Part shown: positions 12,041 through 19,218 of the stretch, piece by piece
Layout: every line of letters begins with the position of its first letter
Numbering within the stretch: the stretch's first letter is position 1
Origin: an uncultured Cytophagaceae bacterium
GTDB taxonomy: Bacteria; Bacteroidota; Bacteroidia; Cytophagales; Spirosomataceae
Length of the DNA stretch: 59,348 nt
Assembly: GCA_903933935.1 (NCBI GenBank)
Contig: CAIZMB010000064.1
Span: 1 to 59,348 of the forward strand
Reading direction: 5' to 3'
The notes under the pieces: generated by a model
Seen by the model: the letters and a program-made list of their open reading frames with translations, nothing else
Told to the model about the DNA's origin: nothing
Database searches by the model: none
Position numbers and translations under genes: made by a program

Positions 12041-12155
12041 AGGAAGGGTAATTGCTTGATCGGATGTAACTCAATGTTCATTTTATTAAATGGCTTGTCT
12101 CAACATTTACGCGATTGCAGGAGAGGTGCATCGTCACCTTTCCATTATTTTTTCT

Positions 12156-12203: not shown

Positions 12204-15200
12204 GTGGCCTTCAAAGAATATAAAAATTTAGATTATGCTGTATTAGCAGAAGAAATTTTAAACTTCTGGAAAAATAACGACATTTTCGAAAAATCAATTT
12301 CTAGTCGGGAAGGAAAACCAAGCTATACTTTTTATGAAGGGCCACCTTCTGCCAACGGAACTCCGGGGATCCATCACGTGATGGCAAGGGCGATTAAAGA
12401 TATTTTTTGCCGTTACCAAACGCTGAAAGGGAAGCAAGTGAAGCGAAAAGGGGGTTGGGATACCCACGGTCTTCCAGTCGAATTACAAGTAGAAAAAGAG
12501 TTAGGAATCACCAAAGAGGATATCGGAAAAACAATTTCCGTCGAAGAATATAACCAGCGTTGCCGTGAAACTGTGATGAAATTCACAGATCAGTGGAATG
12601 ATTTAACAGAGAAAATGGGGTATTGGGTCGACCTTTCTTCCCCATATGTGACCTATCAGACACCTTATATTGAAAGCGTTTGGAACTTATTAAAACGCCT
12701 TTATGACCAAGGATTATTGTATAAAGGCTATACGATTCAGCCTTATTCCCCCGCAGCCGGAACGGGTTTATCCTCCCATGAGTTAAATCAGCCTGGTTGT
12801 TACAAAGATGTAAAAGACACTTCTTTGACTGCTCAGTTTAAAGCAAAAAAGACGAGTAAATCCGCATTTTTGTTTGATCATTCAAATCAGGAGCCTGTTT
12901 ATTTGCTTGCTTGGACCACCACGCCTTGGACTTTGCCTTCCAATGCAGCCCTTACGGCAGGAAAAAATATTACCTATGTTTTGGTTAAGACTTTTAACCC
13001 CTATACTTTTTTACCTGTCCATGTAGTTTTAGCTAAGGATTTAGTGAAAAACTATTTCCAAGCTGCGGCTGAAAATGGTGATTTCCAAGCGTATGTCGAC
13101 GCCGACAAAAAGCCTAGTGCAATTCCTTATCAGATTGTGGCTTCGTGTAAGGGTTCTGATTTAGAAGGGGTTGAATATGAAGCTTTGATGTCCTACGTTT
13201 CACCTAAGGAACCAGCTTTCCGAGTTATTTTAGGGGATTTTGTTACGACGGAAGATGGTACTGGGATGGTTCACACTGCGCCAACTTTCGGAGCGGATGA
13301 CTTTCGGGTAGCCCAACAAAATGGAATTCCAGCCATTTTGGTTCAAGATGAAAATGGGAAAGATGTACCCTTAGTAAATCGTCAGGGACGCTTTGTCAAA
13401 GAAGTGACGGATTATGCCTTGGAGCCCGTGAAAGAAGCTTATTTGACAGATGAAGAAAAAGAAGAGGCTAGAATCAAACAAGGAAGAGATAAGTATTTGT
13501 CGGTGGATGAACGAATTGCGATCCAATTAAAAACCGAAAATAAAGCGTTTAATGTTCAGAAATTTGATCACCCCTATCCCCATTGTTGGCGTACGGATAA
13601 ACCCATTCTATACTATCCTTTGGACTCATGGTTCATTAAAACGACGGCTGCCAAAGATAAATTAATTGCCTTAAATAAGACGATTGAATGGAAGCCTGAA
13701 TCCACTGGAACAGGTCGTTTTGGAAACTGGTTGGAGAATTTAGTGGACTGGAATTTATCTCGCTCACGTTACTGGGGAACCCCACTGCCCATCTGGAGAA
13801 CAGAAGATGGATCTGAGGAAATTTGCATTGGCTCATTGGCACAGTTGGCCGATGAGATCAACCTCGCAAATGCATCAGGGAAATTATCCGAGAAACAATT
13901 AGCTGGAAATGCGGCATTCCAAATTGCCCTTGAAAATGGGCAAGCTGATTTACACAGACCTTTTGTGGATGAGATTTATTTGTTGAGTCCAGCGGGTCAA
14001 ATACTTTCTCGAGAGTTAGATTTGATCGATGTTTGGTTTGATTCGGGTGCCATGCCTTTTGCCCAATGGCACTATCCATTTGAGAATCAAGAAATATTTA
14101 AGAAATCGTATCCTGCTGATTTTATATCGGAAGGAGTGGACCAAACGCGTGGTTGGTTCTTCACTTTACATGCAATTTCAGCCATGGTGGAGGATTCGGT
14201 CGCCTTTAAACATGTTGTTTCCACCGGTTTAGTGCTGGATAAAAATGGAAACAAAATGTCCAAAAGACTCGGTAATGCGATCGATCCTTTCGACACTTTA
14301 TTGAAATACGGCGCTGATCCTACACGTTGGTATATGATTACCAACGCTCAGCCATGGGATAATTTGAAATTTGATTTGGCCGGAATTACTGAAGTACGAA
14401 ATAAGTTCTTTGGCACGTTAACGAATACCTATAATTTCTTTGCGCTTTATGCCAATCTAGATGGTTTTGATGCCTCAAATGTTCGTGTCGAAGAGGAAAA
14501 TTTATCGGAATTAGATCGATGGATTTTATCTAAATTGATGAATTTAATTGCTGAGGTGGATGAGTCTTTTGAAACCTATGAGCCCACAAAAGCGGGTCGG
14601 GCGATACAAGATTTTGTGTGCGATCATTTGTCGAATTGGTATGTTCGTTTATCAAGACGTCGTTTTTGGAATCCTGAGGCGAAAGAGTTAGGCTTAAGCG
14701 CAGATAAAAAAGCGGCTTATCAGACGCTGTATACTTGTTTGGAAACGGTGGCCCAACTGATGTCACCCATCGCACCGTTTTATGGAGAGTGGTTGTATAA
14801 AAATTTGACTCAGAAGGAATCAGTTCATTTGACAGATTTTGTCCAGGTTAATTCAGCTTGGAAAAACGAAAATCTGGAGACTTCGATGGAATTAGCTCAG
14901 CGAATTTGCTCTTTGGTACACTCGATTCGTAAGGTGCATAAATTAAAGGTGCGCCAACCGTTAGCCCAAGTTTTGGTACCGGTATTACAAGAAAATGTGC
15001 GCGAGCAAATTAGACGTGTTGAAGACTTAATTAAATCTGAAGTTAATGTTAAGCAGGTGAATTATTTAAATGATGCTTCTGGTGTTTTGAGTAAGCGGGT
15101 TAAACCGAATTTCAAAGCTTTGGGACCAAAGTTTGGAAAGGACATGAAAGCTGTCGCTGATCTTATCACGGGTATGTCAACAGATGATTTATCCACGGTG

Positions 15201-15605
15201 GAATCGAATGGCACGGTTAATCTGCACGGATTTGAGATAGGAATGGGTGACATAGAAGTGATGACAGAGGATATGCCAGGTTATTTGACAGCCAGTGAAG
15301 GGGGATTAACTATTGCATTAGACAATACACTAAGTCCGGAATTGATTCGAGAAGGGATGGCTCGTGAGTTTGTAAACCGTGTCCAAAATTTAAGGAAAGA
15401 CCTAGGTTTTGATGTGATTGATAAAATTCATATTTCGATTCAAGAGAATACCAGTGAATGGAAAGAAAGTTTGACAGAATTTAAAGGATATATATCCCAA
15501 GAAGTTCAGGCTCTTTCGATCAATTGGGTGAAGGAAATAGGAGATGATTTTTCTGAAGTGAGCATAGATGATATAAATTTAAATGTCCGTTTGACCGTTG
15601 CATAA
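12204..15605 (+). CDS. ileS: Isoleucyl-tRNA synthetase, type 2, with GIHH signature
   Basis: This 1133-residue class Ia enzyme charges tRNA-Ile. I start at GTG 12204 because family similarity begins there (FKEYKNLDYAVLAEEIL) and a -7 box precedes it. The ATP-site signature, normally HIGH, reads GIHH at residues 55-58 (PPSANGTPGIHHVMAR), and KMSKR is at 684-688. A CP1 editing domain (TTTPWTLPSNAAL, then GTGMVHTAPTFGADDF) and the anticodon-binding domain follow. The long C terminus and sequence style fit type 2 (eukaryote-like) IleRS. The swapped H/G pair recalls a GXHH variant described in a few strongly mupirocin-resistant IleRS2 enzymes. The AlgI-like gene starts 12 bases later. Confidence 0.96.
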   Translation: MAFKEYKNLDYAVLAEEILNFWKNNDIFEKSISSREGKPSYTFYEGPPSANGTPGIHHVMARAIKDIFCRYQTLKGKQVKRKGGWDTHGLPVELQVEKELGITKEDIGKTISVEEYNQRCRETVMKFTDQWNDLTEKMGYWVDLSSPYVTYQTPYIESVWNLLKRLYDQGLLYKGYTIQPYSPAAGTGLSSHELNQPGCYKDVKDTSLTAQFKAKKTSKSAFLFDHSNQEPVYLLAWTTTPWTLPSNAALTAGKNITYVLVKTFNPYTFLPVHVVLAKDLVKNYFQAAAENGDFQAYVDADKKPSAIPYQIVASCKGSDLEGVEYEALMSYVSPKEPAFRVILGDFVTTEDGTGMVHTAPTFGADDFRVAQQNGIPAILVQDENGKDVPLVNRQGRFVKEVTDYALEPVKEAYLTDEEKEEARIKQGRDKYLSVDERIAIQLKTENKAFNVQKFDHPYPHCWRTDKPILYYPLDSWFIKTTAAKDKLIALNKTIEWKPESTGTGRFGNWLENLVDWNLSRSRYWGTPLPIWRTEDGSEEICIGSLAQLADEINLANASGKLSEKQLAGNAAFQIALENGQADLHRPFVDEIYLLSPAGQILSRELDLIDVWFDSGAMPFAQWHYPFENQEIFKKSYPADFISEGVDQTRGWFFTLHAISAMVEDSVAFKHVVSTGLVLDKNGNKMSKRLGNAIDPFDTLLKYGADPTRWYMITNAQPWDNLKFDLAGITEVRNKFFGTLTNTYNFFALYANLDGFDASNVRVEEENLSELDRWILSKLMNLIAEVDESFETYEPTKAGRAIQDFVCDHLSNWYVRLSRRRFWNPEAKELGLSADKKAAYQTLYTCLETVAQLMSPIAPFYGEWLYKNLTQKESVHLTDFVQVNSAWKNENLETSMELAQRICSLVHSIRKVHKLKVRQPLAQVLVPVLQENVREQIRRVEDLIKSEVNVKQVNYLNDASGVLSKRVKPNFKALGPKFGKDMKAVADLITGMSTDDLSTVESNGTVNLHGFEIGMGDIEVMTEDMPGYLTASEGGLTIALDNTLSPELIREGMAREFVNRVQNLRKDLGFDVIDKIHISIQENTSEWKESLTEFKGYISQEVQALSINWVKEIGDDFSEVSIDDINLNVRLTVA

Positions 15606-15617
15606 AACAAGGTAGAC

Positions 15618-17027
15618 ATGGTTTTCAATTCATTGCAGTTTTTGGTGTTTTTTGGAATTGTGACCAGTGCTTATTTTTTATTAGCTCACAAGTACAGGTG
15701 GGCCTTATTGCTTTTAGCTTCTTGTTATTTTTATATGGCTTTTGTTCCCATTTATTTAGGAATTTTAGGTCTGACTATAGTGATCGATTATTTAGCTGGA
15801 ATCTATTTGGAACGGTTTCAGGGGAGTGCGAAAAAAATATTTTTGGGATTTAGTTTGTTGGCCAACTTAGGTGTTTTGGCCATTTTTAAATATTATTTTT
15901 TTTTCACGGACAACTTTAATTCCCTAGCCAATTATTTCTCCGTCCCTGTTCAATTCCCGGTTTTTAATTTTTTACTTCCTATCGGCTTGTCGTTCCATAC
16001 GTTTCAAGCCATGAGTTATACAATCGAGGTGTATCGTGGGAACCAAAAGGCGGAACGGAATTTTGGGATTTATAGTCTTTATGTGATGTTTTATCCACAG
16101 TTGGTGGCCGGTCCCATCGAAAGGCCACAAAATTTGATTCATCAGTTTCGCGAAAAGCATGTTTGGGATACGGACCGAGTAAAATCAGGCTTATTGCAAA
16201 TGATGCAAGGTTTTTTCAAAAAAGTAGTCATTGCGGACCGACTAGCGATGGTGGTTGACCCAGCCTATGCTAATCTGTCAAGCCAAAGTAGTTTGAATTT
16301 AATTATTGCCAGTATCTTTTATTCATTTCAAATCTATTGCGATTTTTCAGGTTATTCGGATATCGCTATTGGTGCATCTAAGGTGATGGGTTTCAAATTG
16401 ATGAATAATTTTAATGCACCCTATTCGGCCACATCTATTCCAGATTTTTGGCGCCGTTGGCATATTTCCCTTTCCACCTGGTTTAAAGATTATGTGTATT
16501 TTTCCTTAGGGGGTAACCGAGTTTCCGTACCCCGCTGGTATATCAACATTATGATTGTCTTTATTTTATCAGGCTTTTGGCATGGAGCTAGTTGGAACTT
16601 TGTGATTTGGGGAGCTTTACACGGACTGTTCCAATTAATTGGCCTAACACTTAATCGATTTTTCCCTAATTTGGCGGCTAATCAGCGCAACACAGTGGCT
16701 GGAATTTGGTTGTACCGATTATTCACATTTTTATTGGTGACGATTGCTTGGGTGTTTTTTAGAATTCCAAAATTTGGGGATATACAGATTTATTTCCGTC
16801 AACTCGCTCAAGGCACATTTTCCGACCCGATATCATTAGCTTTTAACACCAATGAACTGCTATTTTCTATGTTGTTGATGATTGGATTATATCTTTTTGA
16901 TTTAAAAAGGGACAAAATAAAGGTGGATTCGGTTCAATTATTTTGGCCCATTATGGTGGGATTGGTATTTTTGATTTACTTTTTTGGGGTCTTTAATATG
17001 AAACAGTTTATCTATTTTCAGTTTTAA
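15618..17027 (+). CDS. MBOAT O-acyltransferase, AlgI-like
   Basis: This 469-residue protein has about ten membrane segments. MBOAT proteins of this type move acetyl groups across the inner membrane for O-acetylation of exported polysaccharide. Signatures are MFYPQLVAGPIERPQNLI, an FWRRWHISLSTWFKDYVY segment, and the catalytic-histidine region SGFWHGASWNFVIWGALHG. The following gene, three bases away, encodes an AlgX/AlgJ-like SGNH partner that would transfer the acetyl in the periplasm. It is probably co-transcribed with ileS. Confidence 0.93.
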   Translation: MVFNSLQFLVFFGIVTSAYFLLAHKYRWALLLLASCYFYMAFVPIYLGILGLTIVIDYLAGIYLERFQGSAKKIFLGFSLLANLGVLAIFKYYFFFTDNFNSLANYFSVPVQFPVFNFLLPIGLSFHTFQAMSYTIEVYRGNQKAERNFGIYSLYVMFYPQLVAGPIERPQNLIHQFREKHVWDTDRVKSGLLQMMQGFFKKVVIADRLAMVVDPAYANLSSQSSLNLIIASIFYSFQIYCDFSGYSDIAIGASKVMGFKLMNNFNAPYSATSIPDFWRRWHISLSTWFKDYVYFSLGGNRVSVPRWYINIMIVFILSGFWHGASWNFVIWGALHGLFQLIGLTLNRFFPNLAANQRNTVAGIWLYRLFTFLLVTIAWVFFRIPKFGDIQIYFRQLAQGTFSDPISLAFNTNELLFSMLLMIGLYLFDLKRDKIKVDSVQLFWPIMVGLVFLIYFFGVFNMKQFIYFQF

Positions 17028-17030
17028 TCG

Positions 17031-18118
17031 ATGCAAAAATTACTCGCATTTCTTGTGTTTATTTTTTGTGCACTCACCTTGTATTTGACTAGTTCAAATA
17101 CGGGTATGAAGTGGGTTACTCGTGATCGTTACAGTCGAATAGGGGCTTTGGGAGCAGATAAATATTTGTATGGCGATCTGTATGGATTGACGTATTTAAG
17201 TAAATTTAAAAAGGTAAAAGACACTAATTTTGTTTCACTGCCGGCGATAGTTCAAAAAGCAAATAGCGATACGGCTAAGCTTTTTATTCTTGGTGATAGT
17301 TATTTGTACAGTTTTTTCAAAGAGGATCCTCGCTATTATGTGGGGATAAATCAAGTCCAGTTTATTCGTTGGTCTGTCGCAAATCCCGTGGAAATCAATC
17401 CTTCTAAAAACAAAAAAATATCTTGTTGATCGAATCGGTCGAGCGAAATATGTCGGGTCTACTTAATTTAAATTCCGTGAAAGCAAGATTGGATAAGGAG
17501 GAGGCCACAAACTCTGAACTCACTATGCGTCAGAAAATAGCATTTTTCACTTCCGAAATAGACCGGGTGATTAAGGAAAACTTATATCATCAATCTCTTG
17601 AGGCGAATATTGAATTTGCTTGGTTTAATTTTGGTTTTTGGGAACCATTGAAGGAATTTAAAGCTGATTTTAATTTAAATTTCTTTGGTAGAGTTGATAA
17701 GGAAGTTGCGATTTCAAAGGATCAAAACTTTTTGTACTTAGCTGAAACGATTAACCCCGCACATGTGGGTAGCTCATTTTCGGACATAAGTGAAGCACAA
17801 ATAAAAACTCAAGTGACCGAATTAAATGCCATCCAGGATTATTACAAAGCAAAGGGCTTCGATGAGGTCCTCTTTTCTATTATTCCGAATCCTGTTTCGG
17901 TACTGAGGACAGAGAATAGGCCAGATAATCAGCTTATTCAAAGGATAAAATCGCATCCTGATTTTAAGGGAAAATTAATGGATGCGACGGAAGGCTTGTC
18001 AAAAAATGCCGCATCCAATTTCTTTACCTCTGACTCACATTGGAATCAACGAGGTGCAAAAATTTGGTTAGACCAGTTGAATACTCAGCTTAATCGTTTT
18101 GTTTATTTAGGAAATTGA
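17031..18118 (+). pseudogene. AlgX/AlgJ-like SGNH acetyltransferase, frameshifted
   Basis: Two reading frames make one protein. The first (17031-17429) has a signal anchor (residues 1-20) and the nucleophile motif ILGDSYLYSF, then ends early at TGA. The second (from about 17413 to 18118) carries the middle of the protein and the SGNH C-terminal motif TSDSHWNQRGA with its Asp-His pair. Adding one base to the A7 tract at 17412-17418 fuses them into 362 residues and restores NKKNILLIESVERNMSGLL across the join. It could be a sequencing indel, a real pseudogene, polymerase slippage or a -1 shift. The intact protein would be the periplasmic partner of the AlgI-like gene. It overlaps the convergent amidohydrolase gene by 16 bases. 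Confidence 0.8.
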
Positions 18119-19218
18119 GTTTTATCTAGCTTAGGTAAAAGGTGTAAAGCATTTTTATAATACACTTTTTTGAGTACTTCATCCGGAAGTTCTAATCCAT
18201 AAATTCTCCAGAATGCATGTCTTTTTCGGTAGTATGGAAAGTATTCGTCGGCGGTTTCCAGTAGACGGAAATAGGTATAGTATTCAGAAGTAGTCCAAAT
18301 GTCTTTTCCAAAAAGGACTCGGTCTTGATATTTCATCATGAAAGCGCGGGCAGTTTTTGGTTGGCGTCCGAGTTCATGAATCACTGCTCCGATCTCCGTG
18401 TACATATTGGGATAAAGATCCATTAATCGGCCTAATTCGGATAAATTATTTCCGAGCCAAGCTAAATGCGCACTGATAAATTTGGTATTAGGATGTCTTT
18501 TGATAATATCAAATTGTTCATCCATGATTGTTTTCCAAGAGGGGTATTTGGACGAAGGTCTTGCTCGGCTTGGAAATTGTTTAAGTTCAAGCCAGCGCTC
18601 ATTGGTTTTATCGTGCACGTCGAAAAATGCGATGGGTTCTCCTGTATGAATCAATATGGGAATATTTAATTCACCGCATTTAGCCCAAATGGGATCGAGT
18701 CTTGGGTCATTTGTGCGTAACCTATTTCCTTTTGTGTCTTTAACTTCTAAGCCTAAGTCTTTAAATATTTTCAATCCCATCGCCCCGCCTTTTACTTCTT
18801 TTTCTAAAGCCTTGACTGTTTCGGCAGACCAATTTGGGTTATCGATATCACTAAAATTCAAGTTGGTAAAAACGATTACCCGACCATCAGCTTTTTCTTT
18901 TCCTGCATTGACGGATCGAATTAAAAAATCAGTTCCTTGTTCTCTTGCACCACTTCTATAGGATCCTTTTCCGCTTAAGTTGATCATGAATTTCATATTA
19001 AGACTATCCATCTGTTTCACTAAATAGCCTAAATTTTGAGTTGGCATATTGTTTTGATGATTGTGGATGTCGATGAAAGGATATTTTGCCTTTTTAACGA
19101 GATGTTCAGGGACAACGAGTGTTGATACAGGATCATATTCTTCGAATTCCATGGTTTTTTCTTGAGCGAATGAAGGCAAACTTAGCAGGATGCAGAGTGG
19201 TAGCAAGTATTTTATCAT
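18103..19218 (-). CDS. Secreted amidohydrolase-family protein
   Basis: This 371-residue protein has a signal peptide (LLPLCILLSLPSFAQE). The mature part is a TIM-barrel metal hydrolase of the amidohydrolase-2 type. An HxH-like motif is in FIDIHNHQNN (near residue 50), a metal/base histidine in PILIHTGEP, and another in FISAHLAWLG. FGKDIWT near residue 310 may supply the conserved Asp. The substrate is unknown. Its last 16 bases overlap the end of the convergent SGNH gene, so there is no room for a terminator. Confidence 0.85.
   Translation of the reverse strand: MIKYLLPLCILLSLPSFAQEKTMEFEEYDPVSTLVVPEHLVKKAKYPFIDIHNHQNNMPTQNLGYLVKQMDSLNMKFMINLSGKGSYRSGAREQGTDFLIRSVNAGKEKADGRVIVFTNLNFSDIDNPNWSAETVKALEKEVKGGAMGLKIFKDLGLEVKDTKGNRLRTNDPRLDPIWAKCGELNIPILIHTGEPIAFFDVHDKTNERWLELKQFPSRARPSSKYPSWKTIMDEQFDIIKRHPNTKFISAHLAWLGNNLSELGRLMDLYPNMYTEIGAVIHELGRQPKTARAFMMKYQDRVLFGKDIWTTSEYYTYFRLLETADEYFPYYRKRHAFWRIYGLELPDEVLKKVYYKNALHLLPKLDKTQFPK

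Follow-up and report, generated by a model that had tools for sequence, protein, structure and literature searches.

A single isoleucyl-tRNA synthetase with an exchanged class I motif in a freshwater Aquirufa, and the occurrence of the exchange across Bacteroidota

The DNA analyzed here (the window, 59,348 nucleotides in its full length) comes from a freshwater bacterium of the genus Aquirufa and carries a gene for isoleucyl-tRNA synthetase (IleRS), ileS, whose features are collected in Table 1. The whole protein scores 972.4 bits with the NCBIfam model TIGR00392 (ileS) against a cut-off of 621.4, which identifies it as an isoleucyl-tRNA synthetase. The longest open reading frame (ORF) at this place runs from an ATG at 12090 and encodes 1171 amino acids. 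However, the GTG at 12204 is the likely start, since the ileS homologue of Aquirufa antheringensis begins with GTG and with first residues (MSFKEYKNLDY) closely similar to those of the window protein. Numbered from this GTG, codons 55–58 read GGG ATC CAT CAC, in frame, and encode Gly-Ile-His-His (GIHH) in place of the class I signature HxGH. Bases and translation thereby bear out what had been read at these codons from the sequence alone. The DNA around the motif is CCT TCT GCC AAC GGA ACT CCG GGG ATC CAT CAC GTG ATG, with GGG at 12366 and the end of CAC at 12377, and the translation across it is PPSANGTPGIHHVMAR.

Table 1. The ileS gene of the window and its features (positions of the window)
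Feature	Position	Strand	Remark	Basis
ileS, type 2 isoleucyl-tRNA synthetase	12204..15605	+	1133 amino acids, probable GTG start, stop included	TIGR00392 and matches to solved structures
Ser49, aligned with Tyr59 of E. coli IleRS	12348..12350	+		ORF alignment; role of the Tyr59 position from PMC4861432
GIHH replacing HxGH	12366..12377	+	codons 55–58, tip of the first catalytic helix	sequence
HYPFE, marker of eukaryotic and eukaryote-like (type 2) IleRS	14070..14084	+	residues 623–627	marker from PMC4861432
KMSKR, second class I signature	14253..14267	+	last Ser replaced by Arg	sequence
C-terminal region PF19302 (DUF5915)	15021..15596	+	without the type 1 Cys-4 zinc cluster	domain search and Cys positions

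Judged by its sequence, the window enzyme is a type 2 IleRS, because it matches IleRS2 structures, contains HYPFE, lacks a C-terminal Cys-4 cluster, and bears a Ser at the Tyr59 place. According to the text of PMC4861432, HYPFE occurs in type 2 enzymes, and Tyr59, NKIL, and SSL are markers of type 1 IleRS. HYPFE is present in the window enzyme, and the places of the type 1 markers Tyr59, NKIL, and SSL read Ser49, ARAI, and TLH in the alignment. Its last Cys is residue 902 of 1133, so that the C-terminal zinc cluster is absent; E. coli IleRS1 carries CPRC and CGRC within its last 150 residues. The combination of HxGH and a C-terminal zinc cluster that defines type 1 IleRS is thus missing, and GIHH shows the Gly or Ala in the first and the His in the third position that define the G/AxHH subgroup. 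The closest solved sequences are four entries of Priestia megaterium IleRS2 (808–821 bits), and P. megaterium IleRS1 scores 281–289 bits. A Foldseek search with the predicted structure (mean pLDDT 80.1) likewise places P. megaterium IleRS2 at ranks 1–4 and the first type 1 enzyme at rank 13; the best match superposes at 10.6 Å rmsd over all domains, and the motif helix, spanning residues 56–74, is loose there (pLDDT about 71). P. megaterium IleRS2 is the best match by either criterion, with the GVHH mutant 8c8w leading by sequence and 8c8v by predicted fold. The wild-type P. megaterium enzyme, in contrast, reads HVGH where the window enzyme reads GIHH, and the two are 36–37% identical over the structural alignments.

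The sequence-only reading had pointed to a GXHH exchange in some type 2 IleRS of extreme mupirocin resistance, and such enzymes are indeed in print. G/AxHH was found in 86 of the 163 IleRS2 of the published tree and in no IleRS1 (Brkic et al. 2023, PMC10485003). For the IleRS2 of Deinococcus radiodurans (ALHH), a mupirocin Ki of 6.6 mM was measured, and an exchange to HVGH lowers this value 823-fold (PMC10485003); a Ki of up to 10 mM has been reported for the IleRS of Streptomyces griseus (SgIleRS; PMC4861432), whose motif is also non-canonical (PMC10485003). The helix tip of P. megaterium IleRS2 is shifted, which displaces the backbone of the third position by 1.7 Å; crystal structures of a mutant reveal that a third His fits without displacing the adenine and assumes the role of the first His, and the clash of this third His with mupirocin is a model (PMC10485003). 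The D. radiodurans enzyme and the IleRS2 of S. griseus resemble the window enzyme in being type 2 with positions 1 and 3 of HxGH exchanged. They belong, however, to other phyla, and the window enzyme has KMSKR and a Ser at the Tyr59 position. By analogy with these two enzymes and with the P. megaterium mutant, from which we infer its behavior, His57 in the third position would assume the missing first His's role in amino acid activation, and a bulky third motif residue would clash with mupirocin. Hyper-resistance of the window enzyme, with a Ki in the mM range, would therefore be expected by homology. Since the Ki values of two type 2 enzymes lie 10^4-fold apart (PMC4861432), other residues matter as well. 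A literature search found no mupirocin Ki or MIC for any member of Bacteroidota; a model predicts that mupirocin raises Bacteroidaceae diversity in culture (PMC13085705). Bacteroidetes or Bacteroidota are not named in the main text of PMC10485003, the figures, source data, and supplements of which may well include such sequences, and terms beginning with Bacteroid- are absent from the text of PMC4861432.

The window belongs to a draft genome of 2.89 Mb in 198 contigs (98.87% complete), and among the matches listed a single place in this genome lies above the ileS cut-off. The profile search yielded no second ileS among the matches listed, which agrees with the earlier proposal of a housekeeping enzyme in place of an acquired second copy. 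The other class Ia places of the genome belong to valS, leuS, metG, and cysS, each above its NCBIfam cut-off; HxGH is kept in the first three (HMGH, HVGH, and HIGH, respectively), and cysS reads HLGN. All 118 genomes searched, the window's included, have one ileS above the cut-off each among the matches listed, although in two genomes this ileS is entered as two parts of a single frame. Several congeners show ileS as fragments only, and in one congener (G014, 81% complete) no ileS was detected.

These counts bear on the alternative that the gene is an acquired resistance determinant; it would then be, like staphylococcal mupA, a second ileS obtained by horizontal transfer, and the housekeeping copy with a canonical motif would lie elsewhere. 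Plasmid records lend this idea some substance, as 244 of 72,556 match the window IleRS, 160 of them over at least 80% of the query, and 143 of the 244 are from Staphylococcus. The nine best plasmid rows are Bacteroidota filed as plasmids (Riemerella, Parabacteroides, Bacteroides, Phocaeicola, and Prevotella; 50–58% identity). All nine encode a whole IleRS, and four of them are Riemerella anatipestifer records of about 102–105 kb. MupA and MupB, encoded on staphylococcal plasmids, are likewise type 2 IleRS linked to mupirocin resistance. However, they are acquired extra copies, and the window protein falls far below the cut-offs of their models (771.3 bits for MupA and 760.2 bits for MupB against NCBIfam exception cut-offs of 1900). 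With one ileS in the draft genome among the matches listed, and with a protein tree in which the window IleRS groups with those of Aquirufa, Arcicella, Siphonobacter, and Dyadobacter, horizontal gain is very improbable.

The tree comprises 42 hand-chosen rows, 37 of which are Bacteroidota (the window and 36 loci). These 37 cluster together with a support of 95/92. The next branches are Nonomuraea (GVHH) and Acetoanaerobium (GIHH), relatives with GxHH from Actinomycetota and Clostridia. Paenibacillus IleRS2 (HIGH) falls outside with modest support (91/78), in a tree where long branches meet and whose root serves for drawing only.

Scoring of the motif in relatives, a check proposed along with the sequence-only reading, was extended to the phylum by drawing 296 genomes evenly and searching them with the DNA pattern NG-x-P-G-x-H-H. 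The pattern is present in 295 of the 296 genomes, mostly as a single match, including 292 of 292 high-quality genomes and 140 of 140 genera; the same pattern reversed matches 8 of the 296, as read from the table, which rules out chance as the source of the matches. Wherever both places were listed (57 genomes), a match lies inside ileS (57 of 57), and four extra matches lie elsewhere. In the sole genome without the pattern (G328, 88% complete), the best ileS piece scores 147 bits, which is below the cut-off, and lies at a contig edge. This piece covers profile positions 689–857, so the motif region falls outside that contig, and the miss seems to stem from an ileS cut at the contig end. The canonical counterpart, NG-x-P-H-x-G-H, detects HxGH only behind that lead. 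It gave 24 matches in 23 of the 296 genomes, all of which were read, and by our reading none of them is a canonical HxGH in an IleRS of the phylum. Ten of the 24 are in ORFs of 546–675 amino acids with RFPPEPNG[FY]PH[IL]GH, which we take to be probable glutaminyl-tRNA synthetases; the other 14 lie in frames of 14–316 amino acids that look unlike IleRS or have a stop within the pattern (two cases).

Full-length proteins and a further set of loci gave the same picture. The motif was read in 144 ORFs of more than 1000 amino acids (139 distinct, the window included, some genomes being represented twice) with a pattern that allowed G, A, or H in the first and H or G in the third position: 143 have GIHH (one of them, L097, read separately) and one has GVHH. 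HYPFE is present in 108 of these 144 and missing in 36. In the locus set, 109 of 115 loci could be read; those missed are four ValRS or LeuRS places (L002–L005), a 3′ fragment (L032), and L088, where GIHH is present behind a different lead. The record titles of motif-bearing genomes name habitats from freshwater ponds to the ruminant gut. In the phylum as sampled, the GxHH exchange is the normal state, one not peculiar to the window organism, and the census suggests that it is old and fixed. What is new here is this census, together with side observations on the Tyr59 position and KMSKR; the exchange itself is already known.

The same data dispose of the concern, raised with the sequence-only reading, that a base-call or assembly error in the window misreads a canonical HIGH, an explanation of negligible probability. 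A small draft error may lie nearby, at a gene (17031–18118) that is split in the window and whole in two close relatives. An error in the motif, however, would need two codons changed, and all independent relatives for which a motif could be read have GIHH or GVHH. The IleRS of three genomes that are 99% (G017), 97% (G010), and 96% (G001) identical to that of the window all carry GIHH. A base-call error is thus excluded because close relatives and the phylum show the same motif.

The explanation that we consider very probable is that the gene encodes the one IleRS of an Aquirufa species, a housekeeping enzyme of type 2 with the published G/AxHH motif, in which His57 would have taken over the catalytic role and which, to go by its relatives, would be hyper-resistant to mupirocin. 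Natural resistance as a housekeeping state, as first proposed for this organism, thus holds in so far as a single ileS carries a known resistance motif, the resistance itself being deduced from relatives. The state is not special to this organism, given that the pattern occurs in 295 of 296 sampled genomes of the phylum.

Why the exchange persists is a separate question. It may be a structural state fixed in the lineage and kept for catalysis, for editing, or for want of a cost-free way back, with resistance as a by-product, an explanation that we regard as rather unlikely. Its near-universal occurrence in the sampled phylum, from freshwater ponds to the ruminant gut, speaks for it, as does the Tyr59 position, which is occupied by Ser (121) or Thr (22) in all 143 readable Bacteroidota ORFs: SgIleRS, non-canonical in its motif (PMC10485003), is without pre-transfer editing (PMC4861432). 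Conservation alone, however, cannot separate selection for resistance from inertia, and a way back exists, as Deinococcus-Thermus has naturally reverted to HxGH (PMC10485003). The link to editing is weak too, because Tyr59 is replaced in eukaryotic and eukaryote-like IleRS generally and yeast IleRS, by its group an enzyme without this Tyr, retains pre-transfer editing (PMC4861432). A more far-reaching view, which we hold to be less likely than not, is that GxHH became fixed at the base of Bacteroidota or earlier, with very few losses since, or none; the whole phylum would then live on a hyper-resistant housekeeping IleRS, and present mupirocin exposure would not be what maintains it.

Returning to the housekeeping enzyme with the G/AxHH motif, if its relatives are a guide, the motif predicts target-level tolerance to mupirocin in the phylum. 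If so, an ileS flagged in Bacteroidota as a mupirocin determinant would be a housekeeping gene. The census also provides a set of genomes in which to ask what cost or benefit besides resistance an exchanged class I motif entails.

The second class I signature varies within the phylum. KMSKR was found at 99 of 109 loci and KMSKS at six, with four unread by the pattern. Since these six loci combine GIHH with KMSKS, KMSKR is ruled out as a strict partner of GIHH. Among 30 ileS loci (the best 30 of 118), all with GIHH, the eight from the window's class all have KMSKR, and the 22 from outside this class have KMSKS (21) or KMSKT (1). KMSKR is typical of the window's class but not elsewhere in the phylum.

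Two further observations concern the neighborhood of ileS. Just downstream of a gene for an MBOAT acyltransferase, the gene at 17031–18118 (forward strand) is present as two ORFs of 132 and 231 amino acids in the window and as one ORF of 362 amino acids in two close relatives (L214 and L216), which represents either a break of recent date or a minor error in the assembly. An amidohydrolase gene lies with the MBOAT gene and the split gene at 15618–19218, a block that separates ileS from a TPR-like gene. An insertion or deletion of this block within the genus is probable, because in Aquirufa antheringensis (L036) a gene that by eye resembles the TPR-like gene directly follows ileS.
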